From Reichenbachiella faecimaris (lineage in GTDB: Bacteria > Bacteroidota > Bacteroidia > Cytophagales > Cyclobacteriaceae), in NCBI RefSeq assembly GCF_900176375.1, contig NZ_FWYF01000002.1:160161-224160 (forward strand): a DNA stretch of 64,000 nucleotides, read 5' to 3'. Shown one piece after another: positions 5,148-61,082 of the stretch (its first letter is position 1; each line of letters starts with the position of its first letter). A program made the translations under genes and the position numbers. The notes below the pieces were generated by a model. The model made no database searches and was not told where the DNA came from. It saw only the letters and a list, made by a program, of their open reading frames with translations.

Positions 5148-5566
5148 ACAAACTAAAGATTCTGATTTTAGTAACACGGATAGCCCTTGGTGGGCTATTC
5201 GTTTACGCTGGGGCACAAAAATTTATTCCCAAACCTCCTCGACCTGCAGCTGAGCAAGGGGTAGAATTGCCTGACCATGTGGTGAAAATAAAATCCATGA
5301 TTGGCGGCCTGAAAGGGACTGGCTACTTCTGGCCACAGCTTGGTGTCGCAGAAATTGTATGCGGACTGCTGCTGATCAGTCAGCTCTATGCACTTCTAGG
5401 TGCTGTCATGCTTGTTCCGCTTTCGCTAAATATATTCCTGTTTCATCTGTATTTAGAGCCTCATGAAGTTGGCGAACTCATTCAAACTGGATTTTATCTA
5501 TTGATCAATATGGCCCTGCTCGCCTATGATTACCCAAAATTGAAAATTGCATTTTTAACCAAGTAA
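5144..5566 (+). CDS. DoxX-family membrane protein
   Basis: This is a 140-residue integral membrane protein with four hydrophobic segments. It opens with the typical DoxX pattern (ILILVTRIALGGLFVYAGAQKF), with a conserved Lys/Phe-Pro after helix 1. Its ATG overlaps the HmuY stop by 4 bases, so translation is probably coupled. DoxX-type proteins are often linked to redox or thiol processes, but their biochemistry is poorly defined. Its place within a haem-uptake operon suggests a role in handling the imported iron or haem or in the related redox stress; this is inference from context only. Confidence 0.8.
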   Translation: MNKLKILILVTRIALGGLFVYAGAQKFIPKPPRPAAEQGVELPDHVVKIKSMIGGLKGTGYFWPQLGVAEIVCGLLLISQLYALLGAVMLVPLSLNIFLFHLYLEPHEVGELIQTGFYLLINMALLAYDYPKLKIAFLTK

Positions 5567-5578
5567 GCACTTATAACA

Positions 5579-6517
5579 ATGAAAAAAATAATAATCGCAA
5601 TCTTGCTCATTTCCACGACAGTGGCCTATGGACAAAAACAAAAAAAAGAAGATATCGCAGCTATCAAAGCCATGTGCGGATGCTATGATATCCGTTTCAA
5701 CTTTGCTGAAACTTTCGCTCCAGACAAGGACTATGAGTTTCACGAAAACTACACTTCTGGCGCATTGGAATATGTTTTTCCTATTTCAGAAGACAAGGAC
5801 AAAATTGTATTACAGCACTTGTTGGTAATTGGCGACACCATGATTATCAAACATTGGAGACAAGATTGGCTATATGAAAATACTGATTTTTACTCCTTCG
5901 ACAAGGAAAATACATGGGAGTACAAATCTAAAAATCCAGCGCAAGTAAAGGGGCAATGGACTCAAAAAGTCTATCAAGTAGATGATAGCCCGCGCTATGA
6001 AGGCTCCGCCACATGGGTACATGTAGATGGCAAACACTACTGGGAAAGTGAAGCTGATGCGCCCCTACCACGAAGAGAATTCAGTAAGCGAAAAGACTAT
6101 AACGTGATGAAGAGAATCAACCGTCAGGAGATCACAGACTATGGCTGGGTGCATGAGCAGGACAACGACAAAATCATCCGTACTGAAGATGAAGATGTGC
6201 TACTTGCCCAGGAAAAAGGTTGGAATACCTACACCAAGACAGATGATTCCAAATGTGAGGTAGCCAAAAAATGGTGGGCAAAAAATCAGGCGTACTGGGC
6301 AGATGTTCGTCTGGTTTGGGATGAGCTGTTTGCACAAAACAAGACTGTGGCCATCAACATGAAAGTGGACGACAAAATCATGTTTCAAAGACTATTTGCT
6401 TTGGAAAAAGAAATGATAGGTGCGCAGCCTTATGACTCAGGAGCTTCTAAAACTAAAATCAAAGCCGTGATTCAAATGCACCTCAAGAGTGATCAAATGC
6501 TTACTTCGTTGAAGTAA
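5579..6517 (+). CDS. Exported DUF6607-like protein of the haem operon
   Basis: The product has 312 residues with a Sec signal peptide (about 1-18, cleaved after AYG) and no lipobox. The mature part is rich in Trp, Tyr and Lys/Asp, with segments such as MCGCYDIRFNFAETF near the N-terminus, IKHWRQDWLYEN and YGWVHEQDNDKIIRTE. From memory it resembles the DUF6607 family, which I associate with iron-regulated loci in marine bacteria; this cannot be checked here. It follows DoxX after 12 bases on the same strand, so it is probably co-transcribed with hmuR-hmuY. A CxC pair (MCGCYD) near residue 32 is notable. The function is unknown; periplasmic haem handling is a guess. Confidence 0.75.
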   Translation: MKKIIIAILLISTTVAYGQKQKKEDIAAIKAMCGCYDIRFNFAETFAPDKDYEFHENYTSGALEYVFPISEDKDKIVLQHLLVIGDTMIIKHWRQDWLYENTDFYSFDKENTWEYKSKNPAQVKGQWTQKVYQVDDSPRYEGSATWVHVDGKHYWESEADAPLPRREFSKRKDYNVMKRINRQEITDYGWVHEQDNDKIIRTEDEDVLLAQEKGWNTYTKTDDSKCEVAKKWWAKNQAYWADVRLVWDELFAQNKTVAINMKVDDKIMFQRLFALEKEMIGAQPYDSGASKTKIKAVIQMHLKSDQMLTSLK

Positions 6518-6556
6518 AAATCCACCTCTAAATTTCTTCTCAAAAGGAGACTTTGA

Positions 6557-6579
6557 CCATCCCTCAAACGGAGGGATGG
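6557..6579. repeat. Perfect hairpin without T-run
   Basis: CCATCCCTC-AAACG-GAGGGATGG forms a 9-bp perfect stem with a 5-base loop 39 bases after the DUF6607-like gene. No run of T follows on either strand, so it is either an RNA-stability or processing element or one copy of a dispersed intergenic repeat. Confidence 0.5.
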
Positions 6580-6614
6580 GAAGGGGTGGCAAATCTTATC
6601 AAACCAACAGCAAG

Positions 6615-6941
6615 ATGAAAAACTGTGATCCACATATCCTATCTCAAGGGCCTCACTTTAGCCTCACTCATTGTGACCGCTGCCAGCATATCGGACTCTA
6701 TTACAAAAATCTTCTGATTGGATATTCGCGCAAGCATTTTGCAAGGTTCGTGGAGAACTACTCCAAAATTAATTTTAACCATCATGCGGTGTACTTCCCG
6801 GATGAGTCGGCCAGAATCATCATCAAAACTCCACACAAAGACATTCAAATCAATCTTGATTTTCAGGAATTTACTGAACTCAAAAACCTTCTTCAAGAAA
6901 GCGCCCTATTACTCAAGGCCTACGAATTGATCAAGGCTTAA
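6615..6941 (+). CDS. Small cytoplasmic DUF6686-like protein
   Basis: This is a 108-residue soluble protein when started at ATG 6615 (MKNCDPH). The longer frame from 6576 would start inside the hairpin region and adds residues that do not look conserved. Visible features are the paired Cys in THCDRCQHIGLYYKNLLIGY, an earlier Cys-Asp-Pro-His, and a C-terminal amphipathic helix (LKNLLQESALLLKAYELI). It resembles, from memory, the DUF6686 family of Bacteroidota. The Cys/His set (C4, H7, C24, C27) could bind a metal or cluster. It lies on the same strand as the haem-uptake genes, 97 bases after the last of them, but whether it belongs to that transcript is open. Confidence 0.75.
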   Translation: MKNCDPHILSQGPHFSLTHCDRCQHIGLYYKNLLIGYSRKHFARFVENYSKINFNHHAVYFPDESARIIIKTPHKDIQINLDFQEFTELKNLLQESALLLKAYELIKA

Positions 6942-7027
6942 AATCTATAAATAGAAAGGTATTTTTATTTCTTAGTATAATTACATGCAATTCATGCTAA
7001 ATTTATATTTTGTTCGTCAAGCTAGCT

Positions 7028-7339
7028 ATGAAAACGCAAATCCTATATTTCCTTACTTTACTTTTACTAAGTTCTTGTGGCTCATACGAACAGGGATTAA
7101 AAGAAGGCATAGCGCAAGGAAAAACTGAGGGTCTAATTCTGGGAAGAGAAGAAGGTTTCGAAAGTGGGTTTGACGCTGGGCAACTACAAGGTGCTGAAGA
7201 GGGCCACGAGGCAGGTCATGCCAAAGGACACGAAAAAGGATATGAGGCTGGTTTTACGCAGGGCAAAAAAATCGGCTATCAAGCTGGATATGAAGCCGGT
7301 AAAAAACGAGGTTACGAAGAGTGCAGAATGGGCTGGTAG
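7028..7339 (+). CDS. Lipoprotein made of GX3 tetrad repeats
   Basis: The product has 103 residues from ATG 7028 (the TTG at 7010 is too far from the signal peptide). A lipoprotein signal peptide ends in LLSSCG (Cys16), so the protein is membrane-anchored. From Tyr19 almost to the end the sequence is 19 unbroken four-residue units with Gly in the fourth place (for example HEKG, YEAG, FTQG, YQAG), ending in YEECRMGW. The pattern matches the deca-GX3 repeats known from Yae1/Lto1-type proteins but is longer and stands alone behind a lipobox. A rod-like glycine-ladder helix that packs against a partner or itself is a reasonable inference. No function is assigned. Confidence 0.8.
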   Translation: MKTQILYFLTLLLLSSCGSYEQGLKEGIAQGKTEGLILGREEGFESGFDAGQLQGAEEGHEAGHAKGHEKGYEAGFTQGKKIGYQAGYEAGKKRGYEECRMGW

Positions 7340-7343
7340 CCTT

Positions 7344-8894
7344 CTACAAATTCTTTGACCAAACCTTAAATAGTGCAGCCTGATTGGCCGTAGGATCAAT
7401 TATTTGAGCAAAACTAAAATTCGTGGGATTGTAGTCAATTCCTATTTTTTCATAATAAGAAGCAATGGGCAAGGCCTCGGTTCCTTTGATATAATCATTG
7501 ATAAAGGTTTCTATTTCCGGGTAGGTCATATCTACTATAGTCTCAAAAAAATCAGCCTCAGAAAACGCTTGGTCAGGCCCAAAAGTATCAATCAATTCTA
7601 GTACCACTTCTCGCATACCTTTGGTTCCATTGGATAGTTCTAGCAGCCGAATGTCCAACAAGCTAATTACGAATGCTCCTCGGTTATAGATGTTGCCAAA
7701 CTCGCCTCCTCCTTTGCTAGTGTAGGCCTCAGAACCAATTTGCTGCAAACTAAAACTTGGATCAAATTGACTATCTATGGATACTTTCGTGCTGATCTCT
7801 GACAATAAAGTGGGCAAATCCATAGACCCATTTCTATACTGCATAAAATCAGACGCCCATTCTGTTACACCCTCATATAGCCAAAGGTGCTGTGAGGGTG
7901 TAGGAACTGCAAAATTGAAATCAGCTATAATCTCGCTATGAATATTCAAAGGAGTGACCACATGAAAAAACTCATGAGCAGAAATACTTTTTATTGCCCT
8001 TCCAAAATTTACGGTGTAATCACGATCGCGAAGGACATAAACAGAGCTTTTAGAATGCTCCAATGCCCCTGCATTCCGATCTCCAAAATGGTATAAGAAG
8101 TCATATTGATCCGTGGGTAAAACTTCGAGAAATGCTTCTGCATCCAGCAAAATTTGATTGACATCTGCCAATACGTTCGCAGCCGTAATCGCTCCACTCG
8201 CGGAATAGACATGGATGTTGATATCTGCCCCTCCTACTTCAGTAGATGTGCTGGACAAATTCCCAAGTAAGATTGGAGAATCAGCTAGATGGTCGAAATC
8301 TGTAGCTCTAAATACACCTTCTTCATACACTGGCAAAGCAGTCCCCAAAGACCAGCTTTTGGGGTAACCAAGAGATACAAAATAATCTCGCTCTTTGAGC
8401 CCTTCCGGGTATCCTATGACCATTGGCGTATTCAATAACACGTGGTCATTTTCAATAGATGTCCCTGCCATAGCATAAATAGGATATTCCAAAACTTGCG
8501 TATCAAAAGTCTCGCTCACTTCATATATGATTTTAAAGGCAGAGGTGGGATCTGCTATTTTCCATTGATTGGTGGAAATAGCTGTAGCGGTTATTTTATT
8601 GCCTTCTTCATCAAATACCCTTAAGTTCTGAACAAATCTGCCAGCATTAGAAATATCATACGTGCCTGGCACCGTAGCCGCAAATTGCAAGATATCATTG
8701 TCTTGAGACAATCCATCCACATACATTTCTACCTTAAAAGTATCATCCGATCGATCATTCAAATTGATATGCACATAAAAGGCATCTGATAAATCCGCAT
8801 CTGTAGGGAGTACAAATCTGGGGTCAACATCGTCATCACAAGCAGTGAACAACCAGATGGCCAGCAGTGAGAGGTATTTAAACTTTGTAATCAT
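7344..8894 (-). CDS. M61-family (glycyl aminopeptidase-like) metallopeptidase lipoprotein
   Basis: This is a 516-residue lipoprotein (signal peptide with FTAC, then acidic residues) when started at ATG 8894; the upstream TTG at 8918 adds residues outside the signal peptide. An N-terminal beta domain (about 30-190) precedes a gluzincin core: HEFFH (His307, Glu308, His311) and LWLYEGVTEW with Glu341 as the third zinc ligand, then the GTEALP segment near residue 480 that M61 enzymes share. The usual C-terminal PDZ domain is missing, so the protein is shorter than typical M61 members of about 600 residues. It would cleave peptides on the cell surface or in the periplasm. It starts 59 bases after nadB on the same strand and may share its transcript. 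Confidence 0.85.
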   Translation of the reverse strand: MITKFKYLSLLAIWLFTACDDDVDPRFVLPTDADLSDAFYVHINLNDRSDDTFKVEMYVDGLSQDNDILQFAATVPGTYDISNAGRFVQNLRVFDEEGNKITATAISTNQWKIADPTSAFKIIYEVSETFDTQVLEYPIYAMAGTSIENDHVLLNTPMVIGYPEGLKERDYFVSLGYPKSWSLGTALPVYEEGVFRATDFDHLADSPILLGNLSSTSTEVGGADINIHVYSASGAITAANVLADVNQILLDAEAFLEVLPTDQYDFLYHFGDRNAGALEHSKSSVYVLRDRDYTVNFGRAIKSISAHEFFHVVTPLNIHSEIIADFNFAVPTPSQHLWLYEGVTEWASDFMQYRNGSMDLPTLLSEISTKVSIDSQFDPSFSLQQIGSEAYTSKGGGEFGNIYNRGAFVISLLDIRLLELSNGTKGMREVVLELIDTFGPDQAFSEADFFETIVDMTYPEIETFINDYIKGTEALPIASYYEKIGIDYNPTNFSFAQIIDPTANQAALFKVWSKNL

Positions 8895-8953
8895 ATCAAT
8901 GAAGGTTAACGGTAACAAATAAACTTCATTGTGCCCAAATACCCTTATCCGTT

Positions 8954-10507
8954 TCAGGCTTCCTTATAGAACCCTCCTCTATTTTCAGTTCGAGCTTGTG
9001 ATTGTTTTACTATCAGGTAGGCAATAGTGATCAAGTTTCGTAGTTCAGAAAGTTGCGGAGAGATTTTTGTTTTTTTGTATAAATCCTCAGTTTCTTCATA
9101 GAGGACTTTCAATCGATTTGAAGCGCGATTGAGCCGCTCGTCTGATCGTACAATCCCCACATAGTTGCTCATGATGGCTTGCACTTCCTTTTTGTTGTGT
9201 GTGATCAGGATGAGCTCTTTTGGATTGGTGGTGCCTTCTTCACTCCAGTCAGGTACTTTAGCGTTTTCTTCCACACTTTCTACTTCTTCACATGATTTTT
9301 CATAGCAATGATGAGCAAAAATCAACGCTTCGAGCAATGAATTAGAGGCCAGTCTATTGGCGCCATGCAAACCTGTACAAGCACATTCGCCACAAGCATA
9401 TAGGTTGGCTATTTGTGTCTGACCAAAGGCATTGGTAACCACCCCTCCACACAGATAATGAGCAGCAGGAACCACAGGGATCATGTCCTTTTTCCAATCT
9501 ATCCCCAGTTCCTTACATTTTTGCAGAATATTAGGAAAGTGATTTTCAAATCCTATGGGATCCAAATGACGACAGTCTAGGTATACGTAGTCATCACCAC
9601 TTTTCTTCAATTCACTATCAATCGCGCGCGAGACAATATCACGAGAAGCCAATTCCTTTCTCTCGTCGTACTGCCCCATGAAAAGTTCACCCTTTCGATT
9701 ACGCAAGAGTGCCCCAAAACCTCGTACAGCTTCAGAAATCAAAAAGGTTTGACCTGGTCTGGTATCATAGAGTGCTGTTGGATGAAACTGCACAAATTCC
9801 ATGTTTTGAATTTGCGCCTTGGCGCGATAAGCCATGGCCACACCGTCCCCAGTGGCTACTTTTGGATTGGTGGTATTTTGATAAACTTGGCCTATACCAC
9901 CACTGGCTAGTAGCACTATCTTAGAGAGGTAAGTTTCAATTTTTCCTGTTTTCTCATCCAGTACATAAGCCCCATAGCACTTATTATCTTCTCTACCCTT
10001 CCATTCCTGGATATGGTGATTGGTGATCAAATCCACAGCAAAATGATGACTAAGCAAACTGATATTGTCGCACTGTGCTACTTGATCCAGCAGGGTTTCT
10101 TCTAATTCAAACCCAGTAATGTCCTTGTGATGTAAAATTCTATTCTGAGAATGCCCCCCTTCTCTGCCTAAGTCAAAATCACCTAGGTTGTTCTTGTCAA
10201 ATTCAGCTCCCCAGCTGAGTAACTCTTTCAATCTGTCGGGCGCTTCCCTAACCACCATTTCTACAATCTCCCGATCACAAAGGCCGTCCCCTGCCATGAG
10301 CGTGTCTTCGATGTGCTGCTCATAAGAATCCGTGACTGTATCAATAACCACGGCCATTCCACCTTGAGCGTATTTAGTATTTGATTCGTTGGCAGCAGCC
10401 TTAGTCACAATAGCCACTTTCTTTTCTGGAAATCTCTTAGCTACCTTGAGCGCATAGGTCAGTCCTGCCAGGCCAGAGCCAATAATAAGAAAATCGTGTT
10501 TGATCAT
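8954..10507 (-). CDS. nadB: L-aspartate oxidase
   Basis: The enzyme has 517 residues and oxidises L-aspartate to iminoaspartate with FAD, the first step of de novo NAD synthesis. The FAD-binding GSGLAG lies at residues 10-15, the TKYAQGG segment at about 45, the HHKDITGFELEE segment follows, and the AHYLCGGV and CTGLHGANRLASNSLLE motifs typical of the succinate dehydrogenase/NadB flavoprotein family are present. Its length agrees with the family (about 520-540). It lies 3 bases downstream of nadA, so the two consecutive pathway steps are co-transcribed. NadC is not in the window. Confidence 0.97.
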   Translation of the reverse strand: MIKHDFLIIGSGLAGLTYALKVAKRFPEKKVAIVTKAAANESNTKYAQGGMAVVIDTVTDSYEQHIEDTLMAGDGLCDREIVEMVVREAPDRLKELLSWGAEFDKNNLGDFDLGREGGHSQNRILHHKDITGFELEETLLDQVAQCDNISLLSHHFAVDLITNHHIQEWKGREDNKCYGAYVLDEKTGKIETYLSKIVLLASGGIGQVYQNTTNPKVATGDGVAMAYRAKAQIQNMEFVQFHPTALYDTRPGQTFLISEAVRGFGALLRNRKGELFMGQYDERKELASRDIVSRAIDSELKKSGDDYVYLDCRHLDPIGFENHFPNILQKCKELGIDWKKDMIPVVPAAHYLCGGVVTNAFGQTQIANLYACGECACTGLHGANRLASNSLLEALIFAHHCYEKSCEEVESVEENAKVPDWSEEGTTNPKELILITHNKKEVQAIMSNYVGIVRSDERLNRASNRLKVLYEETEDLYKKTKISPQLSELRNLITIAYLIVKQSQARTENRGGFYKEA

Positions 10508-10510
10508 TAA

Positions 10511-11470
10511 TTATTTAGATAGTTCAAACATACGCTCTAAAGGGATGAGCGCTTTTTTCCTTATATCTTCGGGAACGTCTATTTCTGGGGTTTCATTTTT
10601 AAGACAGAGATATAATTTCTCTAGGGTGTTCATTTTCATGAAATGGCATTCGCTACAAGCGCAAGTGTTGTCTTCTTTGGCGGGAGCAGGAATCAATCGC
10701 TTATTGGGTACTCTCTTTTGCATTTCATGCAAAATACCTGCTTCTGTAGCCACAATAAACTCTTCTGATTTGTCCTCCTGAACAAAATTTAGCAGCTTTT
10801 CAGTAGAACCCACAAAAGAGGCCACTCTCAATACTTGCTGCTGAGACTCGGGGTGTGCAATGAATTTGGCCTGTGGGTTTGCTTTGTGCAGATCCAAAAT
10901 CTTGTCCATGGCAAATGCCTCATGCACCATACAGGCTCCATCCCACAGCAACATGTCTCTGCCCGTTTGATGAATCAAGTATTCACCCAAGTTTCGATCT
11001 GGCGCGCAAATGATCTTTTGATCTTTTGGAATGGAATTGATGATATCCACTGCATTAGATGACGTACAAATGATGTCGCTCATCGCCTTGATCTCAGCCG
11101 TACAGTTGATATAAGTCACCACGATGTGGTCTGGATGAGCCTCTACAAATGCTTTGAAGGGTCCAACAGGTGCTGATTCGGCTAAGGAGCATCCTGCATT
11201 GACATCAGGAAGAATCACTTTTTTAGTTGGGTTGATGATTTTGGCTGTCTCGGCCATGAAATGTACACCTGCGAAAACTATAATGTCAGCATCTGTTTCG
11301 GCTGCTTTTCTAGATAATCCCAAACTATCCCCTACAAAATCGGCTATGTCTTGAATGTCAGCCTCCTGATAATAATGCGCCAGCAAAACGGCATTTTTTT
11401 CTTTCTTCAGTCTGACAATTTCTTCCAGATATTCTGATCTGGTCTTCGGTACTACTTCCAATTGCTCCAT
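10511..11470 (-). CDS. nadA: Quinolinate synthase
   Basis: The enzyme has 319 residues and condenses iminoaspartate with dihydroxyacetone phosphate to quinolinate, using a [4Fe-4S] cluster. Cluster-ligand cysteines are visible at Cys94 (NAGCSLAES), Cys180 (WDGACMVHE) and in the CACSEC motif (270-275). The N-terminal [22 protein letters not shown] segment is characteristic. It is the first gene of the minus-strand nadA-nadB unit. The ATG at 11470 gives the expected N-terminus. Confidence 0.97.
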
Positions 11471-11533
11471 GGCTCCAGTGGCTTTCCTTTATCATTCAAA
11501 ATGACCTGAAAGCTCGTTAATTACTTAAGAATA

Positions 11534-11541
11534 CAAATTTA
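11534..11541 (-). promoter_or_regulatory. Candidate -7 element of the nadA-nadB promoter
   Basis: On the minus strand this reads TAAATTTG, a match to TAnnTTTG, 63 bases upstream of the nadA start. No clear TTTG is seen at the expected -33 position (TTCG at best), so support is partial. Confidence 0.4.
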
Positions 11542-11692
11542 ATGTAAATCATGGGGTTCAGCGAAAACCACCCTAAAATAAACTTTCATGAGACAACGAT
11601 TTTTTACTATGGCAGGATCATAATTTTACAATATCTTTAGATGTTAAATTTTCAACCCAGCGGCTCAACTATAGTAAACTAAAACGTAAACC

Positions 11693-12796
11693 ATGTCTGT
11701 GCTTAACTCTGCCAAAACACCCGACCTAGCCAAAATCACATACCTTTTAATCAGTACTGTAGCTGTAGTGATGGTACTATACTATTCGGAAGAATATGTC
11801 ATTCCATTTATAGTCGCTATGCTCGTTTGGTTCATCATCCATGAAGCCAGAGAGTATTTGGTGAGGATCCCTATAGTTCGGGATAAGGTTCCTGTCTGGG
11901 CACAGAGCACCTTTTCTTTCCTCTTTATGAATGTAATACTCTTCATAGTTGGAAAACTACTTTATGCCAGCATGTCTCATCTTTCTGAAAACCTTGAAGA
12001 ATACCAATCAAACCTGCTTTTGGCTTTGACTGAATTAGATGGACTTGCAGGGATCAATGTATCTTCTCAACTCATAGAATATGTGCAAAATGTCGACTTC
12101 ACCAAGTATATCAGTATGATGATCGATACAGCGACTACCTTGCTTGGAGATGCCTTTTTAATTCTAATCTATATCATTTTTCTACTCATTGAAGAAACTG
12201 TATTTGACAAAAAAATGGAGTCCTTCTATCCCAATGAAGATGTTCGCAAAAAGAAATTTGGCCTCCTAAACAAAATGGACAGGAACATTGGGCGATATCT
12301 GTTGCTCAAAACTTTTGTAAGCTTCATCACTGGCCTACTCAGCTATATTATTTTATTTTTATTTGACATTGACTCTCCATTTTTTTGGGCAATGCTTATT
12401 TTTGTCCTCAACTACATCCCTACGGTAGGTTCTTTGATTGCTACATTGTTTCCAGCCTTTTTTGCCATTCTGCAATTCGGCGAATTAGCACCATTTGTTT
12501 ACATTTTGGTATCTGTTGGAGTCATACAAGTTATTGTCGGCAATATTATCGAACCTAAGATGATGGGGAATTCGTTGAACATGAGTTCTCTGGTGGTGGT
12601 TCTATCTTTGACGATATGGGGCGCTATTTGGGGAATAATGGGTATGATTTTAAGTGTACCCATTACCGTTATGATGATTATTGTTTGTGAAGAAATTCCG
12701 AGTTTGAGGTTTGTGGCCATTGCACTTTCCGAAAACGGGGAATTAAGTAATGATTCAGTGGTGAATACATTGGCTGAAGATTCTACCGAAGATTAA
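11693..12796 (+). CDS. AI-2E family transporter (PerM/TqsA-like)
   Basis: This is a 367-residue membrane protein with about seven hydrophobic segments. A pair lies near the N-terminus, a central amphipathic region follows (about 95-140), and the conserved block FVLNYIPTVGSLIATLFPAFFA then IVGNIIEPKMMGNSLNMSSLVVVLSL is diagnostic of the AI-2 exporter/UPF0118 family. Members export small molecules, including autoinducer-2 in some bacteria and Na+(Li+)/H+ in others, so the substrate is not determined. The acidic C-terminal tail (EDSTED) is typical. It stands alone, divergent from nadA. Confidence 0.9.
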   Translation: MSVLNSAKTPDLAKITYLLISTVAVVMVLYYSEEYVIPFIVAMLVWFIIHEAREYLVRIPIVRDKVPVWAQSTFSFLFMNVILFIVGKLLYASMSHLSENLEEYQSNLLLALTELDGLAGINVSSQLIEYVQNVDFTKYISMMIDTATTLLGDAFLILIYIIFLLIEETVFDKKMESFYPNEDVRKKKFGLLNKMDRNIGRYLLLKTFVSFITGLLSYIILFLFDIDSPFFWAMLIFVLNYIPTVGSLIATLFPAFFAILQFGELAPFVYILVSVGVIQVIVGNIIEPKMMGNSLNMSSLVVVLSLTIWGAIWGIMGMILSVPITVMMIIVCEEIPSLRFVAIALSENGELSNDSVVNTLAEDSTED

Positions 12797-12871: not shown

Positions 12872-13846
12872 ATGGAAAGAAAATTTTTAAGATGGTCATT
12901 GATACTCTCAGCGATCATGGTGCTTACCTATCAGCAGGTAAATGCACAAGGGTGCAGTGATGCAGGGTTCTGCACAATGGGCGCAATGAAGCCCGACCAG
13001 TCCTTCAACAAGAAAGTTAAATTAAAGCTAAGAACTATTGAGGTTAGCTATTATCATGGAGCATCTACACTGTCTCCATTGATCAATGTGGTTAACCTTG
13101 ATGCCTCTTTTTCTATTACCAACAATTTAGGCTTTCAAATCAAACTGCCTTATCAGTGGGTGAATGGAAATTTTGACAATACTTCAGGGATGGGGGACAT
13201 TTCCTTGAGTGCGACGCAGCGAATCTCAGGAAATGAAAATTATGACATAAGTGCCACACTGGGAATGAAAATTCCAAGCAATGATGGTGACCTCAAAGAC
13301 AGTGGTTCCAAATTTCCAGAGGCCAAAGGATTGTCGCTTCCTATGTATTATCAAACCAGTTTGGGTAGCTATGATGTGGTAGCGGGAGCTTCTTATATCA
13401 GTTCTAAATGGCTTTTTGCTACAGGTATCCAGGCGGCGCTGACTACCAATAGCAATAACTTTTGGCCTGGAGAATGGGTAGGTATTTATCCAGACGAATC
13501 CTATGTGAGAGATTACGATGTAGCTACTAATCTCAAAAGAGGAACAGACGTGATGATTCGTGTAGAACGCAACTTCAGGTTCTCCAACTATAGCTTTAAC
13601 ATCGGGCTTCTACCAATTTATAGAATCACCAAAGATCAAATTGAAGATCGCGACACGGGAGAGTACATGAAATTGGATGATACCACTGGTCTTGCACTTA
13701 CTTTGCTTAGTAGCTTTTCATATCATTTTGATGTGACCAATAGCATCAAGGTCTCTTTCGGAAAAAAATTCATGGATCGTAAAGTAAATCCTGATGGACT
13801 TACTAGACAACATGTAATCATTGTAGCGTATGGATTTAGATTTTAG
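12872..13846 (+). CDS. Outer-membrane beta-barrel protein upstream of the CHAT gene
   Basis: The product has 324 residues with a signal peptide (about 1-25, cleaved after VNAQ). The mature N-terminus carries a short Cys pair (GCSDAGFC). The rest is alternating beta-strand sequence ending in YGFRF, the terminal aromatic typical of outer-membrane barrels. About 12 strands look possible. It resembles Bacteroidota proteins annotated only as 'transporter' or 'OmpW/outer membrane protein'. The stop codon is 4 bases before the start of the TPR-CHAT gene, so the two are translated together and probably cooperate. Whether the barrel is a pore, an anchor or a substrate is unknown. Confidence 0.8.
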   Translation: MERKFLRWSLILSAIMVLTYQQVNAQGCSDAGFCTMGAMKPDQSFNKKVKLKLRTIEVSYYHGASTLSPLINVVNLDASFSITNNLGFQIKLPYQWVNGNFDNTSGMGDISLSATQRISGNENYDISATLGMKIPSNDGDLKDSGSKFPEAKGLSLPMYYQTSLGSYDVVAGASYISSKWLFATGIQAALTTNSNNFWPGEWVGIYPDESYVRDYDVATNLKRGTDVMIRVERNFRFSNYSFNIGLLPIYRITKDQIEDRDTGEYMKLDDTTGLALTLLSSFSYHFDVTNSIKVSFGKKFMDRKVNPDGLTRQHVIIVAYGFRF

Positions 13847-13850
13847 AAAC

Positions 13851-16565
13851 ATGAGAAATAAAGTAATCACCCTATTTGCTCTTTGTTGTCTTTCTTTTTC
13901 CATTTCGTTTGGGCAGCATTCCATAGACAATCCAGACTACTTGGCAGGAGAAAAACATTTTGAGGCTGGTGAATTTGCTGCAGCCCTGGCTAAATATGAA
14001 TCTGCCGTGCAAAAGCTAGATGTCAGACAAGCTGGCCAGTGCCAGCTTAGAATAGCAGAGGTAAACACCCGAATGGGAAATGCCCAAGTTGGATTGGACA
14101 TGTGCCATGCATTAGAAAACAGCCTGCAAGATGACCCCTTTCTATTGGCTGAAAATTACAGTGTGAAAGGTGATGCGTATTTGCATCTGGGAAGAAATGG
14201 AGAGGCTATTAAGGATTTGCTTAAAGCACAAAACCTCTTTCAAAATGCCGGAGTCAGCTCTTCCAAAGAAATGGCCAATTGCTACAATGATTTAGGGATT
14301 GCTTATTGGAACAATGGCAATACAGACTTGTCCTTGCAGTATTTGCAAAATGCACTGAATATCAGAGAAGAACTTTATGGAGAGCATCATCCAGAAGTAG
14401 CAGATTCTTACAATAACATTGGTTTGGTCAATGCTGACATCAATACTTTTGCGGCCGTTATCTATTTCAACAATGCCCTGAAAGTGTATCGTTCTATCTA
14501 TGACGAAAATCATCCTAAGATCGCTCTGGTACTCAATAATCTGGCACTGCAGTATGATGTGCAAGAAAATTATGAGCAGGCGCTAGAGGACTTGCAACAG
14601 GTCTCGGCCATTTACAACCATTTGCATGAGGGTGATCATCCAAGTAAAGCCTTTGTAGCTTTTAGTATTGGCAATGTGTACTACCATCAGCAATCATACG
14701 ATCAGGCACTCAGCTATCAGAATGAGGCATTAGAAATGTACACTCGACTCTACGGACCCAAGCACCCTGAGATTGCGAACATTTACAATCTCAAGGGAGA
14801 TATCTATTTGAAAAAAGGTGAATACAGAATGGCACTGGAGACTATACAAAAAGCCATTTATGCTAATTTATCAGATCAGGAATTGACTGACATTTATCAA
14901 AATCCAAAATTGGAAAGTTATTACAATGCTGACATCCTGCTGAGCTCCCTCCAACAAAAGTCAGACGCTTTTGAAACTTATCATTATAGTAAGACACTAA
15001 AATTTAGAGACCTTGGGGCTGCACTCAATACACTAGAAAAAGCAGATGAGCTGGTAAGTCATATCAGGCAAATTCGGCTAAGTGAGAAGGATAAAATTTC
15101 GCTAAGTGCCAAGGCCTCTGAAATCTATGAAGCTGGAGTATCCCTGTCCTATCAAATGAGTCAGGTGGTATTTAAACCCAAAGACTACCTTGAGAAAGCA
15201 TTTTATTTTGCTGAAAAAAGTAAATCGGCAGTCTTGCTTTCTGCAATTCAAGACACCAATGCCAAAGAATTCTCTGGCATCCCAGCAGAGTTGATCACAG
15301 AGGAAAGTGAACTAAAAGCCAGCATTGTACTACAGGAACAGCTTTTAGCAACTAATCAGGAGCCAGAAAAAGAAGCCAATTTAAAGCAAGAATTGCTTAC
15401 GCTAAACAATAGGTACAACGAGTTTGTGAGACAACTTGAAGCCGATTATCCAAATTATTACAACTTGAAGTTTAACGTGAAGCATGTTGGTTTATCAGAA
15501 CTTCAAACCGCACTTGGAGCAAACACAGCACTGGTGACACATTTTATTACCGAAAATAGGATTTATACTTTCTATGTCACTATGGACAACTTTCAGGTAT
15601 TTCGTGAATCAAAAGCAGATGATTTTGACAAACAAATTTTCGGGCTCAGAAACGCGATGAAATATGATATGAAAAATGCATTTGTCAGAACGGGTCAGCG
15701 ACTATATGACGAGCTTTTTCCTATGAAAATCAAAAGCCACATCAATCAGCTCTTGATTATTCCAGAGGGTGGCTTATCAACTATCCCATTTGAGGCCCTG
15801 ATCACAGAGCAGAAATTGGAAGACGAATTGAGCTATTCGCAAATGCCTTTTTTGATTAAAAAATATAATGTCAGCTATGACAACTCAGCTACGCTTTTCG
15901 TGCAACGTAAGAAAGAGATTGACAATTATGAGGGAGCCACAGAGGATATTTTGCTGGTAGCTCCAATCAACTTTGACAAGTACCAATACCAAGGGCTTAC
16001 AGGCAGGCTAAATGATTTACCAGGTTCTAAAGCAGAAATTGATGAAATAAAACTCTTGTTTAAAGCGAATGCTAGGGGAGCCACCCTACTCACAGAATCA
16101 GAAGCCACTAAAGCGAATCTTACAAATGAAAACATCAAACCATATAAGTATATTCACTTTGCTACGCATGGCATGGTGAACGAATCTGAGCCAAGCCTTT
16201 CGAGAATTTTTTTGCGGGATGGTAGTTTGTATTCGGGAGATATTTACAACATTGATATCAATGCCGATTTGGTCTGTTTGAGTGCGTGTGAAACTGGTTT
16301 GGGGAAGATTTCAAAAGGAGAAGGTATCATTGGGCTATCAAGAGCCTTGCTTTATGCAGGAGCAAAGAACCTGATCGTGTCACTTTGGACGGTAGCAGAT
16401 GCCTCTACTTCACAATTGATGATAGACTTTTACAACAATCACTTGTACTCCACCACGCACAACACATTTAGTGGAGCATTGAGAAAAGCCAAACTATCAT
16501 TGATCAATGACGAAAAGTACAACAAACCCTATTATTGGGCACCTTTTGTACTGATTGGGGAGTAG
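13851..16565 (+). CDS. Secreted TPR-CHAT protease-like protein
   Basis: The product has 904 residues from ATG 13851; the ATG at 13830 lies inside the previous gene and would spoil the signal peptide, which ends at FGQ (about residue 22). Tetratricopeptide repeats cover about 30-350, including the kinesin-light-chain-like pattern with HPEVADSYNNIG and HPKIALVLNNLA. A helical linker follows, and a C-terminal CHAT domain (about 620-900) carries HFATHG (His near 770) and SACETG (Cys near 813), the caspase-type His/Cys dyad. CHAT domains are cysteine peptidases of the caspase clan that act on partner proteins. This one is exported, so it is distinct from the cytoplasmic CRISPR-associated TPR-CHAT. 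Its partner is probably the barrel encoded 4 bases upstream. Confidence 0.92.
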   Translation: MRNKVITLFALCCLSFSISFGQHSIDNPDYLAGEKHFEAGEFAAALAKYESAVQKLDVRQAGQCQLRIAEVNTRMGNAQVGLDMCHALENSLQDDPFLLAENYSVKGDAYLHLGRNGEAIKDLLKAQNLFQNAGVSSSKEMANCYNDLGIAYWNNGNTDLSLQYLQNALNIREELYGEHHPEVADSYNNIGLVNADINTFAAVIYFNNALKVYRSIYDENHPKIALVLNNLALQYDVQENYEQALEDLQQVSAIYNHLHEGDHPSKAFVAFSIGNVYYHQQSYDQALSYQNEALEMYTRLYGPKHPEIANIYNLKGDIYLKKGEYRMALETIQKAIYANLSDQELTDIYQNPKLESYYNADILLSSLQQKSDAFETYHYSKTLKFRDLGAALNTLEKADELVSHIRQIRLSEKDKISLSAKASEIYEAGVSLSYQMSQVVFKPKDYLEKAFYFAEKSKSAVLLSAIQDTNAKEFSGIPAELITEESELKASIVLQEQLLATNQEPEKEANLKQELLTLNNRYNEFVRQLEADYPNYYNLKFNVKHVGLSELQTALGANTALVTHFITENRIYTFYVTMDNFQVFRESKADDFDKQIFGLRNAMKYDMKNAFVRTGQRLYDELFPMKIKSHINQLLIIPEGGLSTIPFEALITEQKLEDELSYSQMPFLIKKYNVSYDNSATLFVQRKKEIDNYEGATEDILLVAPINFDKYQYQGLTGRLNDLPGSKAEIDEIKLLFKANARGATLLTESEATKANLTNENIKPYKYIHFATHGMVNESEPSLSRIFLRDGSLYSGDIYNIDINADLVCLSACETGLGKISKGEGIIGLSRALLYAGAKNLIVSLWTVADASTSQLMIDFYNNHLYSTTHNTFSGALRKAKLSLINDEKYNKPYYWAPFVLIGE

Positions 16566-56527: not shown

Positions 56528-56554
56528 GAGTCGACTTTGTACCTTGAGTTATTC

Positions 56555-57121
56555 ATGAGTTATTTTAAATTTCGTATTTTGAAAACCATATTATCAAAGT
56601 TAAGCTTCGTGTTTCCAATAGTTACTATTGTCACTCTTTTGCAATTTTGTGCCCCGACAGCATCTACTAGTACAAGTAGCTCTGTATATGAAGAGGATTT
56701 GTCCATACATAGACCGTCCTATACGATGGCAGAAGAAGCAACTGAAGAAGTAGAAGTGGCTACAACAACGAAAACTTACGCTTCCACAGCCGAATTTATA
56801 ACTCCTACGAACCATATCAAGGCCGAATTAGACACTGTACTTTACAGAATCAAAAAGTCACGGGAAAATATCAAATACGTAGATGGCTATTCTATACAGC
56901 TTTACTCTGGCAACAATAGAGACAAAGCCAATCAGGTGAAGGTGAAAACTTACGAAGTGCTGGAAGATCAGCGTCCCAGAGTGAGTTATGACCAACCCAA
57001 TTACAAAGTGCGTGTAGGCGAGTACTATTCGCGCCTGGAGGCTAATACTGATTTCGTAACCTTACGAAATCACTTTTCTAGAGCTGTTCTGGTACCAGTC
57101 AAGATTAAAATTGTGAATTAA
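56555..57121 (+). CDS. SPOR-like exported protein
   Basis: The product has 188 residues from ATG 56555 (the TTG at 56537 is upstream of the better start). A hydrophobic segment (about 15-35) ends at LLQFCAPT, a possible lipobox. A Ser/Thr/Glu-rich linker (about 38-95) leads to a C-terminal SPOR-like domain (about 112-188: GYSIQLYSGNNRDKANQVK, NYKVRVGEYYSR, ending AVLVPVKIKIVN). SPOR domains bind denuded peptidoglycan, so a periplasmic cell-wall role is likely. It lies 27 bases after secA. Confidence 0.78.
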   Translation: MSYFKFRILKTILSKLSFVFPIVTIVTLLQFCAPTASTSTSSSVYEEDLSIHRPSYTMAEEATEEVEVATTTKTYASTAEFITPTNHIKAELDTVLYRIKKSRENIKYVDGYSIQLYSGNNRDKANQVKVKTYEVLEDQRPRVSYDQPNYKVRVGEYYSRLEANTDFVTLRNHFSRAVLVPVKIKIVN

Positions 57122-57217: not shown

Positions 57218-57754
57218 ATGTTCAAAAAAATACTTTTAGTGGGAATGTATTGCACCTGTGCGTTGGTGGCTACTGCCCAAGTCGAAAAGGGAGATAAAGT
57301 GCTGGGAGCTAATTTATCCATCACGTCTCAAACCGTTGGAGATTTCACTTTTACCCAGGCCTTTCTGGTAGCGTCAGGTGAAATATATGTTACAGATAAT
57401 ATTTCGGTTGGTGCTGGCCCGTTGCTATTTGCCAGTTTTAGTGACGCAGCTGATTCGGGCGGGGTTGGTCTCAATCTATTGGGCAACTATTCTTTTCTTA
57501 CTGATGCTGGAGTTGTCATGCCTTATGTGGGTGCACAGTACACCTTTCTATCAACCATCGACAGTGAATCTGATGAGCCACCGAGCTTTGGGTCTCTTGG
57601 CGGAAATGTAGGCATGAAAATTTTCTTAACAGAAAGAACCAGTATTGATGCCAAACTAAGTTATACTGGATACATACATTCGTCACTTGACGAGGTACCA
57701 GACGGCGGAAATTTGGCCTTAAATATTGGTTTCAGTATCATTTTCCCAAATTAA
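57218..57754 (+). CDS. Outer-membrane beta-barrel protein upstream of the caspase gene
   Basis: The product has 178 residues with a signal peptide (about 1-21, ending in TAQ). The mature protein is about eight beta-strands with aromatic girdles (FLVASGEIYVTDNISVGAGPLLFASF, YVGAQYTFLST) ending in FSIIFPN, typical of a small OmpA/OmpW-type barrel. Its stop is 3 bases before the start of the caspase-like gene. This repeats, with unrelated sequences, the arrangement of the barrel-CHAT pair at 12.9-16.6 kb. Confidence 0.78.
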   Translation: MFKKILLVGMYCTCALVATAQVEKGDKVLGANLSITSQTVGDFTFTQAFLVASGEIYVTDNISVGAGPLLFASFSDAADSGGVGLNLLGNYSFLTDAGVVMPYVGAQYTFLSTIDSESDEPPSFGSLGGNVGMKIFLTERTSIDAKLSYTGYIHSSLDEVPDGGNLALNIGFSIIFPN

Positions 57755-57757
57755 GAG

Positions 57758-59764
57758 TTGAATCACCGAACGATTACTTTTTTGATTGCGATATTGCTGA
57801 GCCAGCTCTCAATGGCTCAGCAATACTCGTTATTGCCCTACAAACAATTTGAGACCTCATACGGTCAACCGATATCTACTATAGACCTCTCTCTGGATAG
57901 CGAACAAATCTTGCTCACAGACAAAAAGGGATTACTTCAGTTGTGGGATGTTCCCAATCTGGTAAAGCAAAAAGAGACCAAATCAAAAACGCCCTACCTA
58001 CTCACCTCTTTTAGTAAAGCGTTCATTACGCTACTCAATAAAAAGGGGGAACTCTTAAAATTAGATCAAAATTTTGATCAAATATTCCAGAGCGAAACAG
58101 GGACTGTTCCAGTTCTTGCCACATTAGACCCAGATAAAAAAATAATGAGTACCCTTACCAAAGAAGGGTACATCGAACTGTTTGACCTATCGGTAAATAT
58201 GAGCTACGCCAAAATGGATAGCCGGAATGATTCTAAAAACTCTTTGTTTATAGGATTTGACCGATTTGGACAATATATAGCACAAATCTCCAACTTGGGA
58301 GAAGTGAGAATCTGGAACCCTGCTACGCAAAATATCTTGAAACACTTGAAACTAGAGAGTGGAGAGTACCATGGTTCTAAATCAATAATACATAGCGCCA
58401 CTACTAGCAAAGGAAGCAATTATTTCATCGTAGGACTGCAAGAAATTTTTATCCCCAAAGGAGGTATGCAATCGGGCAAACAACCTGAAAGGAGAAATAT
58501 GCTGATTGTTTATGATTGGGATACAGGAAACGAAATCAAACGCATAAAAACCAATGATAGAGTAGATCAGATAGTAGCAGGTCCTGGTCCTGAAACCCTA
58601 ATCTACATCAGTAATGACAAGAGTGAAATTAACTTGATCAACATCCAATCAGGCAGCCTGATGCATCGAGTCAGTACCACTTTTAAGCCAACGATACTGA
58701 AACTTTCGGATGATAATCAGTTGCTGGCCGCTGGCTCTGAAGATGGCCAGATTGCAATTTTCGAACTTCAAAGAAATGCAACCGCAGAAATCAAGATTTT
58801 GTCCCCACCTATAAGTCGGGGGTTGAATGGTTCACAAACAAGCAACAGAGAAATAAACCTAAAAGGAACCATTGAAAACATCAGAGGGCTCAAGGCCTTG
58901 ACCATCAATGGAAGAGAAGCCTCTCTAAATAACTTCGGCGAATTCGAGACCAAAATCGCATTAGCACCTGGGAAAAATAAAATTCGAATTGAGGCGCTGG
59001 ATCACGAGCAAAACAGAATAGTAAAAGACATTTTCCTCACTAGGAATATAGATCCCACACCTAATGCAAATAAATCTGAACACTCCAATCTAAAAAAGAA
59101 AAAAATAGCTCTGGTCATAGGAAACTCCGACTATGCTAATGTATCTCCTCTGGCCAATCCAGCCAAGGATGCAGAAGCCATGGAGCAGGCACTCTTGTCT
59201 TTAGGCTTTGAAGTTATCAAATTGATCAATGTCGGTTATGAAGAGATGAAAAATGCGGTTTTCAGATATGGCGACCTTATCCAAGATGTGGATGTTTCAA
59301 TGTTTTACTACGCTGGTCATGGTCTTGAAGTGGATGGGGTGAATTATCTTGTACCAACAGATGCCAACATAAATTCCAGTCTAGACGTCAAATTGAAAAC
59401 CATTCCGCTGACAGGGGTATTAAGAACCATAGATTATGCGAATGATGAAGGACTCAATATGATTATTCTAGATGCCTGTAGAAATAACCCATTCCCAACA
59501 GGTAAACGAGGAGGTGCAGGACTTGCTCGGGAAACAGCCACGAGTGGAACCATCATCGCCTATGCCACTGAGCCAGGAGCTACTGCTTCCGATGGCACGG
59601 GAGACAATGGACTCTACACTGGAGAGCTCGTTAAACAAATGCTAATTTTTCAAAGGATCGAAGACGTTTTTATCAATACAAGAAATAACGTAGAAATATT
59701 ATCAAACGGAGAGCAAAAGCCTTGGGAGGAAGCCAGACTCAAGGGAGTGTTTTACCTTAATTAG
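57758..59764 (+). CDS. Exported propeller-caspase (C14-like) protein
   Basis: The product has 668 residues starting at TTG 57758; no ATG gives a signal peptide, which ends at SMAQ (about residue 21). Residues about 25-345 have WD40-like blades (LWDVPNL, VRIWNPAT, AGSEDGQIAIF). A short Ig-like linker (about 350-435) leads to a caspase fold (about 447-668): KKIALVIGNSDY, YYAGHG with His521, and ILDACRNNPF with Cys574. This is a metacaspase-like peptidase of the C14 family in an exported form. Substrate unknown. The barrel gene immediately upstream is probably its partner. Confidence 0.9.
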   Translation: MNHRTITFLIAILLSQLSMAQQYSLLPYKQFETSYGQPISTIDLSLDSEQILLTDKKGLLQLWDVPNLVKQKETKSKTPYLLTSFSKAFITLLNKKGELLKLDQNFDQIFQSETGTVPVLATLDPDKKIMSTLTKEGYIELFDLSVNMSYAKMDSRNDSKNSLFIGFDRFGQYIAQISNLGEVRIWNPATQNILKHLKLESGEYHGSKSIIHSATTSKGSNYFIVGLQEIFIPKGGMQSGKQPERRNMLIVYDWDTGNEIKRIKTNDRVDQIVAGPGPETLIYISNDKSEINLINIQSGSLMHRVSTTFKPTILKLSDDNQLLAAGSEDGQIAIFELQRNATAEIKILSPPISRGLNGSQTSNREINLKGTIENIRGLKALTINGREASLNNFGEFETKIALAPGKNKIRIEALDHEQNRIVKDIFLTRNIDPTPNANKSEHSNLKKKKIALVIGNSDYANVSPLANPAKDAEAMEQALLSLGFEVIKLINVGYEEMKNAVFRYGDLIQDVDVSMFYYAGHGLEVDGVNYLVPTDANINSSLDVKLKTIPLTGVLRTIDYANDEGLNMIILDACRNNPFPTGKRGGAGLARETATSGTIIAYATEPGATASDGTGDNGLYTGELVKQMLIFQRIEDVFINTRNNVEILSNGEQKPWEEARLKGVFYLN

Positions 59765-59891: not shown

Positions 59892-61082
59892 ATGGCGCTA
59901 ATAGACAAAATAAAGACTCTTTCTGAAGCACTTCACAAAGAAACAATAGCCAATAGGCAGCACATACACGCCAACCCTGAGTTGTCCTTTCAAGAAACTG
60001 AGACTGCTAAATACGTAGTTGATCAACTCAAAAAATTTGGTGTAAAAACAAAAACTGGTATTGCAGGCAATGGCATTGAGGCTATCATTGAAGGCAAAAA
60101 CCCGAAGAAAAAAGTTATTGCACTTCGCGCTGACATGGATGCCCTTCCTATCATAGAAGACAGCAGCAAACCCTACAAATCAAAAAATGAAGGAGTGATG
60201 CATGCCTGTGGACATGACGTACATACCTCGTCACTATTGACTACTGTCAATATTCTGAATCAGGTCAAGGGCGATTTTGAAGGTACCATTAAGTTTATTT
60301 TTCAGCCAGGAGAAGAACTTTTCCCTGGTGGTGCTTCACTTATGATCAAGGAAGGCATTCTAGAAAATCCAACGCCAAATGCCATCATAGGACAGCACGT
60401 GATGCCTTTAATACCCGTAGGCAAAGTAGGTTTCAGAAAAGGCATGTATATGGCTAGTGCAGATGAGTTGTACGTCACCGTGACTGGAAAGGGTGGACAT
60501 GGCGCACTTCCTGAGCACAATGTTGATCCTATAGTGATTGCATCCCACATCATCATAGCACTACAGCAGGTAGTCAGTCGGATGGCAGCACCCAAAATCC
60601 CAAGTGTGCTTAGCTTTGGAAAAGTACAAGCCATGGGTGCAACCAATGTCATTCCAAACGAAGTGAAAATTGAAGGCACCTTCAGAACACTTGACGAAAA
60701 GTGGAGAAAAGAAGCGCACCTCAAGATGAAGAAAATGGCGGAAGGTATGGCGGAATCAATGGGTGGTTCTTGTGATTTTAATATTCAAGTAGGATATCCT
60801 TTTCTAAAGAACGAACCAGAGTTAACAGAAAGGGCCAAACAAGCTGCCATTGCTTATTTGGGTAAAGAAAATGTAGTTGATCTAGATATCTGGATGGCAG
60901 CAGAAGACTTTTCTTATTACTCTCAAGAAGTAGATGCCTGTTTTTACCGATTGGGTACTCGAAATGAAGAGAAAGGCATCGTGTCTGGTGTGCATACACC
61001 TACATTCGACATTGATGAAGATGCACTATCACATGGCCCGGGACTTATGGCATGGCTGGCCATCAATGAGTTGAACACCTAA
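59892..61082 (+). CDS. M20-family metal-dependent amidohydrolase
   Basis: The enzyme has 396 residues. Metal-binding motifs HACGHDVHTS (about 100-109), the acidic PGEELFPGG (about 139) and GQHVMP (about 165) match the M20D family (IAA-amino acid hydrolase, carboxypeptidase, N-acyl-amino acid amidohydrolase). A dimerisation domain (about 180-290) is present. Such enzymes cleave N-acyl amino acids. The stop overlaps the ATG of the transporter gene by 1 base, which suggests that the transporter supplies its substrate or removes its product. Confidence 0.92.
   Translation: MALIDKIKTLSEALHKETIANRQHIHANPELSFQETETAKYVVDQLKKFGVKTKTGIAGNGIEAIIEGKNPKKKVIALRADMDALPIIEDSSKPYKSKNEGVMHACGHDVHTSSLLTTVNILNQVKGDFEGTIKFIFQPGEELFPGGASLMIKEGILENPTPNAIIGQHVMPLIPVGKVGFRKGMYMASADELYVTVTGKGGHGALPEHNVDPIVIASHIIIALQQVVSRMAAPKIPSVLSFGKVQAMGATNVIPNEVKIEGTFRTLDEKWRKEAHLKMKKMAEGMAESMGGSCDFNIQVGYPFLKNEPELTERAKQAAIAYLGKENVVDLDIWMAAEDFSYYSQEVDACFYRLGTRNEEKGIVSGVHTPTFDIDEDALSHGPGLMAWLAINELNT

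Follow-up and report, generated by a model that had tools for sequence, protein, structure and literature searches.

Two adjacent genes of Reichenbachiella faecimaris, one for a small outer-membrane barrel and the other for an exported-looking protein that combines a WD40-type propeller, an Ig-like domain and a C14 paracaspase-type domain, form an accessory pair that is found again at five other loci. The pairing is more than chance, the coupling of the two genes is well supported, and the pair probably works as one envelope module. The genes lie on the same strand of a 64,000-nucleotide stretch of genomic DNA (the window), with 3 bases between the stop codon of the barrel gene and the start of the protease gene (Table 1). 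An earlier note on this DNA had described a small barrel followed after 3 bases by an exported WD40-like/Ig/caspase protein with His521 and Cys574; the open reading frames (ORFs) are exactly as stated there, and Pfam searches, AlphaFold2 models and alignments agree with that description.

The barrel gene starts with ATG and encodes 178 residues. PF13505 is the only Pfam match of the product, and no NCBIfam model matches it up to E=1. The AlphaFold2 model (mean pLDDT 86.5) contains eight long strands, and the nearest folds in the PDB include OprF-N, OmpW and OmpA and, by TM-score, NspA; with the profile match and the eight-stranded model in agreement, the ORF encodes a small barrel of the OmpA/OmpW type. 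Identity with PorV was considered and rejected, as no PorV or PorV_fam profile matched (NCBIfam up to E=1; Pfam). The family of the window barrel is common, and the other members that were read (loci L036-L039) adjoin unrelated genes.

The TTG start of the protease gene is plausible because the encoded protein has a leader of its own and its relatives have leaders too; the signal peptide was judged by reading the sequence rather than with a predictor. Comparison of the AlphaFold2 model with the PDB assigns the N-terminal ~320 residues to a WD40-type propeller, with, for example, 290 residues of chain 7qdr_C aligned to model residues 21-339 (Z 29.4, rmsd 2.7). The global confidence of the model is middling (pLDDT 80.2, pTM 0.60), and the comparison was dominated by WD40 propellers; the caspase and Ig parts were assessed by sequence only. 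Residues 228-247 are the densest 20-residue run of invariant positions in the propeller among the six proteins described below and are a candidate docking or activation site. By sequence, the closest solved catalytic domains are those of human MALT1 paracaspase chains (best E=2.8e-15). Across 20 aligned caspase domains His521 and Cys574 do not vary, and in all six module proteases Asp471 and Asp572 are invariant as well; the window protein is likely an active protease. The two aspartates align with aspartates of the MALT1 substrate pocket, which prefers Arg; judged from this alignment and that specificity, the enzyme would cleave after Arg or Lys. Autocleavage at the invariant ERRN of a propeller hairpin, and cutting at a Lys-Gly-Asp motif of the barrel, are suggestions drawn from the sequence. 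Two other identities of the protein were rejected. A type IX sortase of the PorU kind is contradicted by the lack of a C25 domain among the 25 of 26 Pfam families listed up to E=1 and of a match to the NCBIfam PorU model, and a type IX cargo protein by the lack of Por_Secre_tail among the Pfam and NCBIfam matches listed and by a caspase domain that reaches residue 666 of 668.

Table 1. Features of the barrel-protease pair and its flanking genes (positions in the window)
Feature	Position	Strand	Evidence
SPOR-domain protein, left flank, outside the module	56537..57121	+	PF05036; M20 is the next gene in 7 of 7 other genomes of the genus
Small outer-membrane barrel of 178 aa with 8 strands and a signal-peptide-like N-terminus	57218..57754	+	PF13505 (OMP_b-brl), E=4.6e-7, 30.6 bits, barely above the cut-off of 28.7; 8 strands in AlphaFold2 model; OmpA/OmpW/NspA folds
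Exported-looking propeller-Ig-paracaspase, 668 aa, TTG start	57758..59764	+	PF00656, E=2.5e-33; PF09136, E=6e-8; five full-length relatives, 44-47% identity
Signal-peptide-like N-terminus, likely cut after Ala20 (SMA/QQ)	57758..57817	+	Sequence reading; hydrophobic leaders of relatives ending in AQ
Seven-bladed WD40-type propeller, residues 22-345	57821..58792	+	AlphaFold2 model; VIA Z ~29 to WD40 chains; blades counted from model strands
Propeller family signature QEIFIPKGG...PERRN, residues 228-247	58439..58498	+	12 of 20 residues invariant in all six proteins
Ig-like domain (Glucodextran_B), residues 357-427	58826..59038	+	PF09136, 32.9 bits against a cut-off of 27
C14 paracaspase-type domain, residues 448-666	59099..59755	+	PF00656 (Peptidase_C14), 116.1 bits against a curated cut-off of 21.4; MALT1 sequence match; 67-78% identity among the six
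Catalytic His521 codon	59318..59320	+	Invariant
Catalytic Cys574 codon	59477..59479	+	Invariant
M20 peptidase, right flank, outside the module	59892..61082	+	PF01546; SPOR-M20 junction in the genus

Within the genus, the pair occurs only in the window genome, as an insert of ~2.6 kb. The gene order secA-SPOR-M20 is kept in seven other genomes of the genus, none of which keeps an ORF of at least 80 aa between the SPOR and M20 genes or has a hit to the protease's propeller part; the barrel has a match in only one of the seven, located elsewhere in the genome and not beside a caspase gene. With SPOR and M20 side by side and nothing of the pair between them in all seven, the pair is an accessory insertion that came in as a unit. 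Immediately ahead of the M20 start, the flanking sequence, read by eye, is similar to that of the sister genome. A foreign base composition was not seen, the module having 41.2% GC and windows of the same size 40.2% (sd 1.5). Phage records gave no match, and none of 274 matches in plasmid records covers 80% of the query (the 15 listed cover at most 40%), negative results that may leave room for other mobile elements.

Relatives of the protease were collected by two routes. A scan of named genomes with the caspase-domain alignment was evaluated for the best 80 of 521 confirmed loci, 20 of which were inspected. The three best, from Bacteroidetes bacterium SZAS-70 (L078), Dawidia soli (L079) and Cyclobacteriaceae bacterium Prado073 (L080), are 68-71% identical in the caspase domain and match along the whole protein; among the other 17, only L134 matches the propeller part (E=0.001). 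The second route employed the propeller and Ig parts as the query, without the caspase domain and without the barrel. In a draw of 395 genomes of the class only the window's own genome matched, and in a draw of 390 genomes of the order five did, namely the window's own, G712, G802, G839 and G612. The last was dropped as a carrier, its propeller match being partial (E=1.5e-12, 130 of 443 positions), which leaves the protease in 4 of the 390 genomes; G712 duplicates the SZAS-70 record, its barrel being identical to that of L078, and was counted once. Dawidia soli and the Cyclobacteriaceae MAG carriers both belong to the Cytophagales according to the NCBI taxonomy.

At each of the five other loci the protease is encoded in full length, with one to three homologous barrels alongside, and since the barrel was unused in these searches, the five are independent of the way in which the finding was picked. 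The arrangement varies: a single barrel gene lies upstream of the protease gene on the same strand in SZAS-70 (73 nt gap), head-to-head with it on the opposite strand in Dawidia soli (116 nt) and beside it on the same strand in G802 (70 nt gap); two tandem barrels accompany the protease in Prado073 (7 nt gap) and three in G839 (4 nt gap), in both cases on its strand. The four carrier genomes counted hold 8, 8, 11 and 13 PF13505 matches, and with ~3,000-4,200 genes per genome, our own estimate from genome size, the chance of a small-barrel neighbor is roughly 0.5% per locus (~1 in 200); multiplying this chance over the loci would be too generous, since they may have a shared origin. Within regions of 13.9-18 kb that surround the loci, no other gene is common to all six at E 1e-5, and the only other shared item is one ORF pair, sigma-factor-like by eye, in two loci. 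Among the six loci the propellers are 31-45% identical and barrels of different loci 23-50%; no correlated divergence of barrel and propeller is claimed from these identity matrices, which were read by eye and contain too few pairs. The loci number only six, all from Bacteroidota, and may go back to one ancestral pairing.

The earlier note had gone further and suggested a general, undescribed envelope system, which would show over the Bacteroidota as an excess of exported C14 or CHAT genes directly after barrel genes. For C14 this excess did not appear at the level of the phylum. In an even draw of the phylum, C14 is present in 72 of 198 genomes, and the two neighbors of the best-scoring C14 gene were taken from 71 of these (the window genome was left out), 140 genes in all. 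Models of three small-barrel kinds matched 1 of the 140 neighbors versus 1 of 140 control genes, where the former match had itself served to build a barrel model and the latter had E=0.0013; Omp85 matched 2 of the 140 controls. Barrel families are absent from the 25 commonest Pfam families listed for the 140 neighbors, the last of which has two members, and 32 of the 71 C14 proteins are signal-peptide-like by a crude home-made test. Closer C14 relatives were represented by 34 loci (L098, from the same genome as L046, was left out), 32 of them with a usable caspase ORF and together providing 67 neighbors; three match the second small-barrel kind and are those it was built from, and two are TonB-dependent receptors. 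Most C14 genes, close ones included, have no recognizable barrel neighbor in these sets. Six weak barrel candidates, four beside closer-relative caspases and two in the phylum set, were left uncounted: a 163-aa ORF head-to-head with the C14 gene of L134 (PF13505 E=0.0048, below the cut-off) and ORFs of 448 aa (L047), 257 aa (L082), 260 aa (L155), 415 aa (L228) and 657 aa (L258). A tie to barrels belongs to particular C14 families, not to the class as a whole.

Some arrangements of C14 genes were recorded on the way. In the window genome, two of the three other C14 genes have no obvious barrel neighbor by eye; the third, a 988-aa WD40-C14 gene, is overlapped at its end by the gene of a 247-aa exported-looking protein (L077 8539-9282, G000:C7), barrel-like by eye and with no Pfam or NCBIfam match. 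A locus of Spirosoma terrae (L155 1745-12857) holds an array of repeat units in which three small C14 genes alternate with similar-looking neighbors, and in L053 4390-7029 (G029) two C14 genes follow one another in tandem with 15 bases between them.

Beyond the window pair, barrels do recur as neighbors of exported caspase-fold enzymes. The barrel-CHAT pair with the same layout, to which the earlier note had pointed elsewhere in the window, is real: the genes at 12872-13846 and 13830-16565 overlap by 17 bases, the CHAT protein matches PF12770 (E=5.3e-59), and the 324-aa barrel has no Pfam match. This barrel was found in 25 of 59 relatives, and a TPR-CHAT homolog lies directly downstream on the same strand in 17 of the 20 loci read, all 8 genomes of the genus included, with the similarity seen in the TPR part since the flanks end before CHAT; nine of the 17, the window among them, have the same 17-base overlap. 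The CHAT half of the proposed excess was followed in the window genome and this one barrel family; by eye, six other CHAT genes of the genome have no obvious barrel as an immediate neighbor (a PorP/SprF-like gene is found two genes from one of them). A second barrel-like family, of 270-300 aa (PF13568 below the cut-off), adjoins TPR-C14 genes in three seed loci (G024, G022 and G031), chosen because of that neighbor; as a query against the 390 genomes it was found in four places, one of them a seed, and of the three new ones two are beside a TPR-caspase (G796, G917) and one is not. PorU-PorV (NF033707, NF033710) and PorU2-PorV2 (NF052324, NF052325) are adjacent pairs in the window genome as well (PorU2-PorV2 and PorU-PorV at L299, G000:C7:626000-642000, and L300, G000:C6:824000-838000).

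As further observations, the 270-300-aa family, unrelated to the window barrel, is directly beside TPR-C14 genes in L049, L055, L056, L266 and L267, and in L055 and L056 one such gene stands between two caspase genes. A C14 gene is directly followed by that of a TonB-dependent receptor in L054 (G003, 7764-12407) and likewise in L050 (G018, 3927-7873), the junctions in G003 and G018 being a 3-base gap and a 4-base overlap.

Of the general system, then, what stands is a conserved module in the window (six of six loci), a conserved CHAT pair and an existing TPR-C14 pair, without a general rule that joins C14 to barrels. The word undescribed can hold for these pairs only, as type IX secretion already offers a known case in PorU-PorV, where a barrel is the partner of an exported enzyme of caspase fold. 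The two systems are alike in the adjacency of genes for an exported caspase-fold enzyme and an outer-membrane barrel. PorU, a clan CD caspase-fold enzyme, belongs to family C25 and the window protease to C14; PorV is a larger FadL-like barrel, whereas the window pair joins an eight-stranded barrel to a protein with a WD40-type propeller in which no sorting domain was found. Since the Pfam and NCBIfam matches listed include neither a C25 domain nor a PorV profile nor a sorting domain, PorU-PorV, in which a barrel guides the caspase-fold enzyme, serves as a working analogy by layout and not as a relative, with another barrel and another peptidase family. MALT1, the best solved sequence relative of the catalytic domain, also carries Ig-like domains beside it; the window protein differs in being bacterial and exported-looking and in its N-terminal propeller. 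The TPR-CHAT pair resembles the window pair as a conserved, directly adjacent combination of an exported-looking caspase-clan protein with a barrel-like protein, and differs by CHAT in place of C14, by a barrel without a Pfam match and by its presence in all 8 genomes of the genus.

The bacterial C14 homologs (meta-, ortho- and paracaspases) share with the window protease the C14 domain, the His-Cys dyad and WD40 as an accessory domain. Their operon neighbors were surveyed in 2012 (PMC3501461). In the passages of that survey consulted here, WD40 occurs as metacaspase-NACHT-WD40, OmpA is named as an outer-membrane component of 14 operons, and a small-barrel pairing is not seen; of 217 metacaspase operons, the survey could assign no function to 70. 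Among the best matches listed from the PMC subset of the literature (titles and starts of abstracts), no description of a barrel paired with an exported caspase was found. The interpretation in the earlier note is partly supported: the window pair is a real module for which no description was found, and it stands among several caspase-fold/barrel pairs, but no general rule for C14 follows.

For the mechanism we infer, at about even chances, a two-gene accessory envelope module in which a periplasmic protease of Arg/Lys type is docked to, and perhaps gated by, its own barrel. Both proteins would be exported by Sec, and the barrel, in one to three copies per locus, would sit in the outer membrane. 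The protease would stay in the periplasm, because its caspase domain extends to the C-terminal end and the searches showed no type IX sorting domain; this placement is predicted from the N-terminus and the missing sorting domain. The propeller may then dock on the barrel or on a ligand bound to it, and the barrel would place, and perhaps switch on, the caspase-fold protease, which would cut after Arg or Lys. The coupling of the genes, the kept catalytic residues, the OmpA-type barrel and the propeller are observed; the mechanism built on them and the role of the module are conditional.

A main rival to docking holds that the barrel is a substrate or inhibitor, whose periplasmic end or loops the protease clips, with a change of permeability or the release of a signal as the result. 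Caspase-like proteases cleave adjacent bacterial gasdermins, and the tandem barrels, in two and three copies, would fit several substrates. A possible cut site is offered by the Lys-Gly-Asp that directly follows the predicted leader in eight of the nine aligned module barrels, the Asp being absent from all five non-module barrels of the same alignment; however, the ninth module barrel has Ala in place of Lys, the generic barrels begin similarly with K-G or Q-G, and the barrel model is OmpA-like and does not have the gasdermin fold. We regard a substrate or inhibitor barrel as unlikely. An envelope anti-phage or killing system, in which the barrel senses a surface attack and the protease responds by destroying proteins of the envelope, would agree with the sporadic presence in the order draw, the differing insertion sites and the poor conservation of the surface protein, and the empty search of phage records counts neither for nor against it. 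The defence-system search (PADLOC) adds in its favor a generic caspase model matched by the protease, but the match is weak and covers part of the model only (E=7.1e-10), the barrel has none, and the nameable neighbors in the loci read are, by eye, housekeeping and not defence genes. We consider this reading improbable.

Two unrelated cargo genes may also merely travel together, given that each comes from a common family and that a joint function is putative; yet the pairing has been kept at all six loci despite duplication of the barrel and one inversion, and no other gene is common to them, which makes mere co-travel very unlikely. The docked and perhaps barrel-gated protease is the reading we prefer. 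Because its presence is patchy and its barrel poorly conserved, the data suggest a surface-related, non-essential role, in sensing, competition or defence, over a housekeeping one, a defence role being possible.

To our knowledge, the role of exported bacterial caspase homologs is largely unknown, and a conserved partner provides a handle on them, since a protein at the surface may be what positions the protease or sets it off. A wider reading, which we hold to be rather doubtful, is that in this bacterial group the pairing of an exported caspase-fold enzyme with an outer-membrane barrel has arisen repeatedly and each time independently, the partners being two unrelated small barrels and TonB receptors for C14, a third barrel for CHAT and PorV for C25. 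There would then be a general design, in which the barrel serves to recruit or gate the enzyme at the outer membrane, and the window pair would be a mobile and rapidly evolving form of it. If barrels do repeatedly recruit caspase-fold enzymes, PorU-PorV would be one member of that wider design and not an oddity of secretion.
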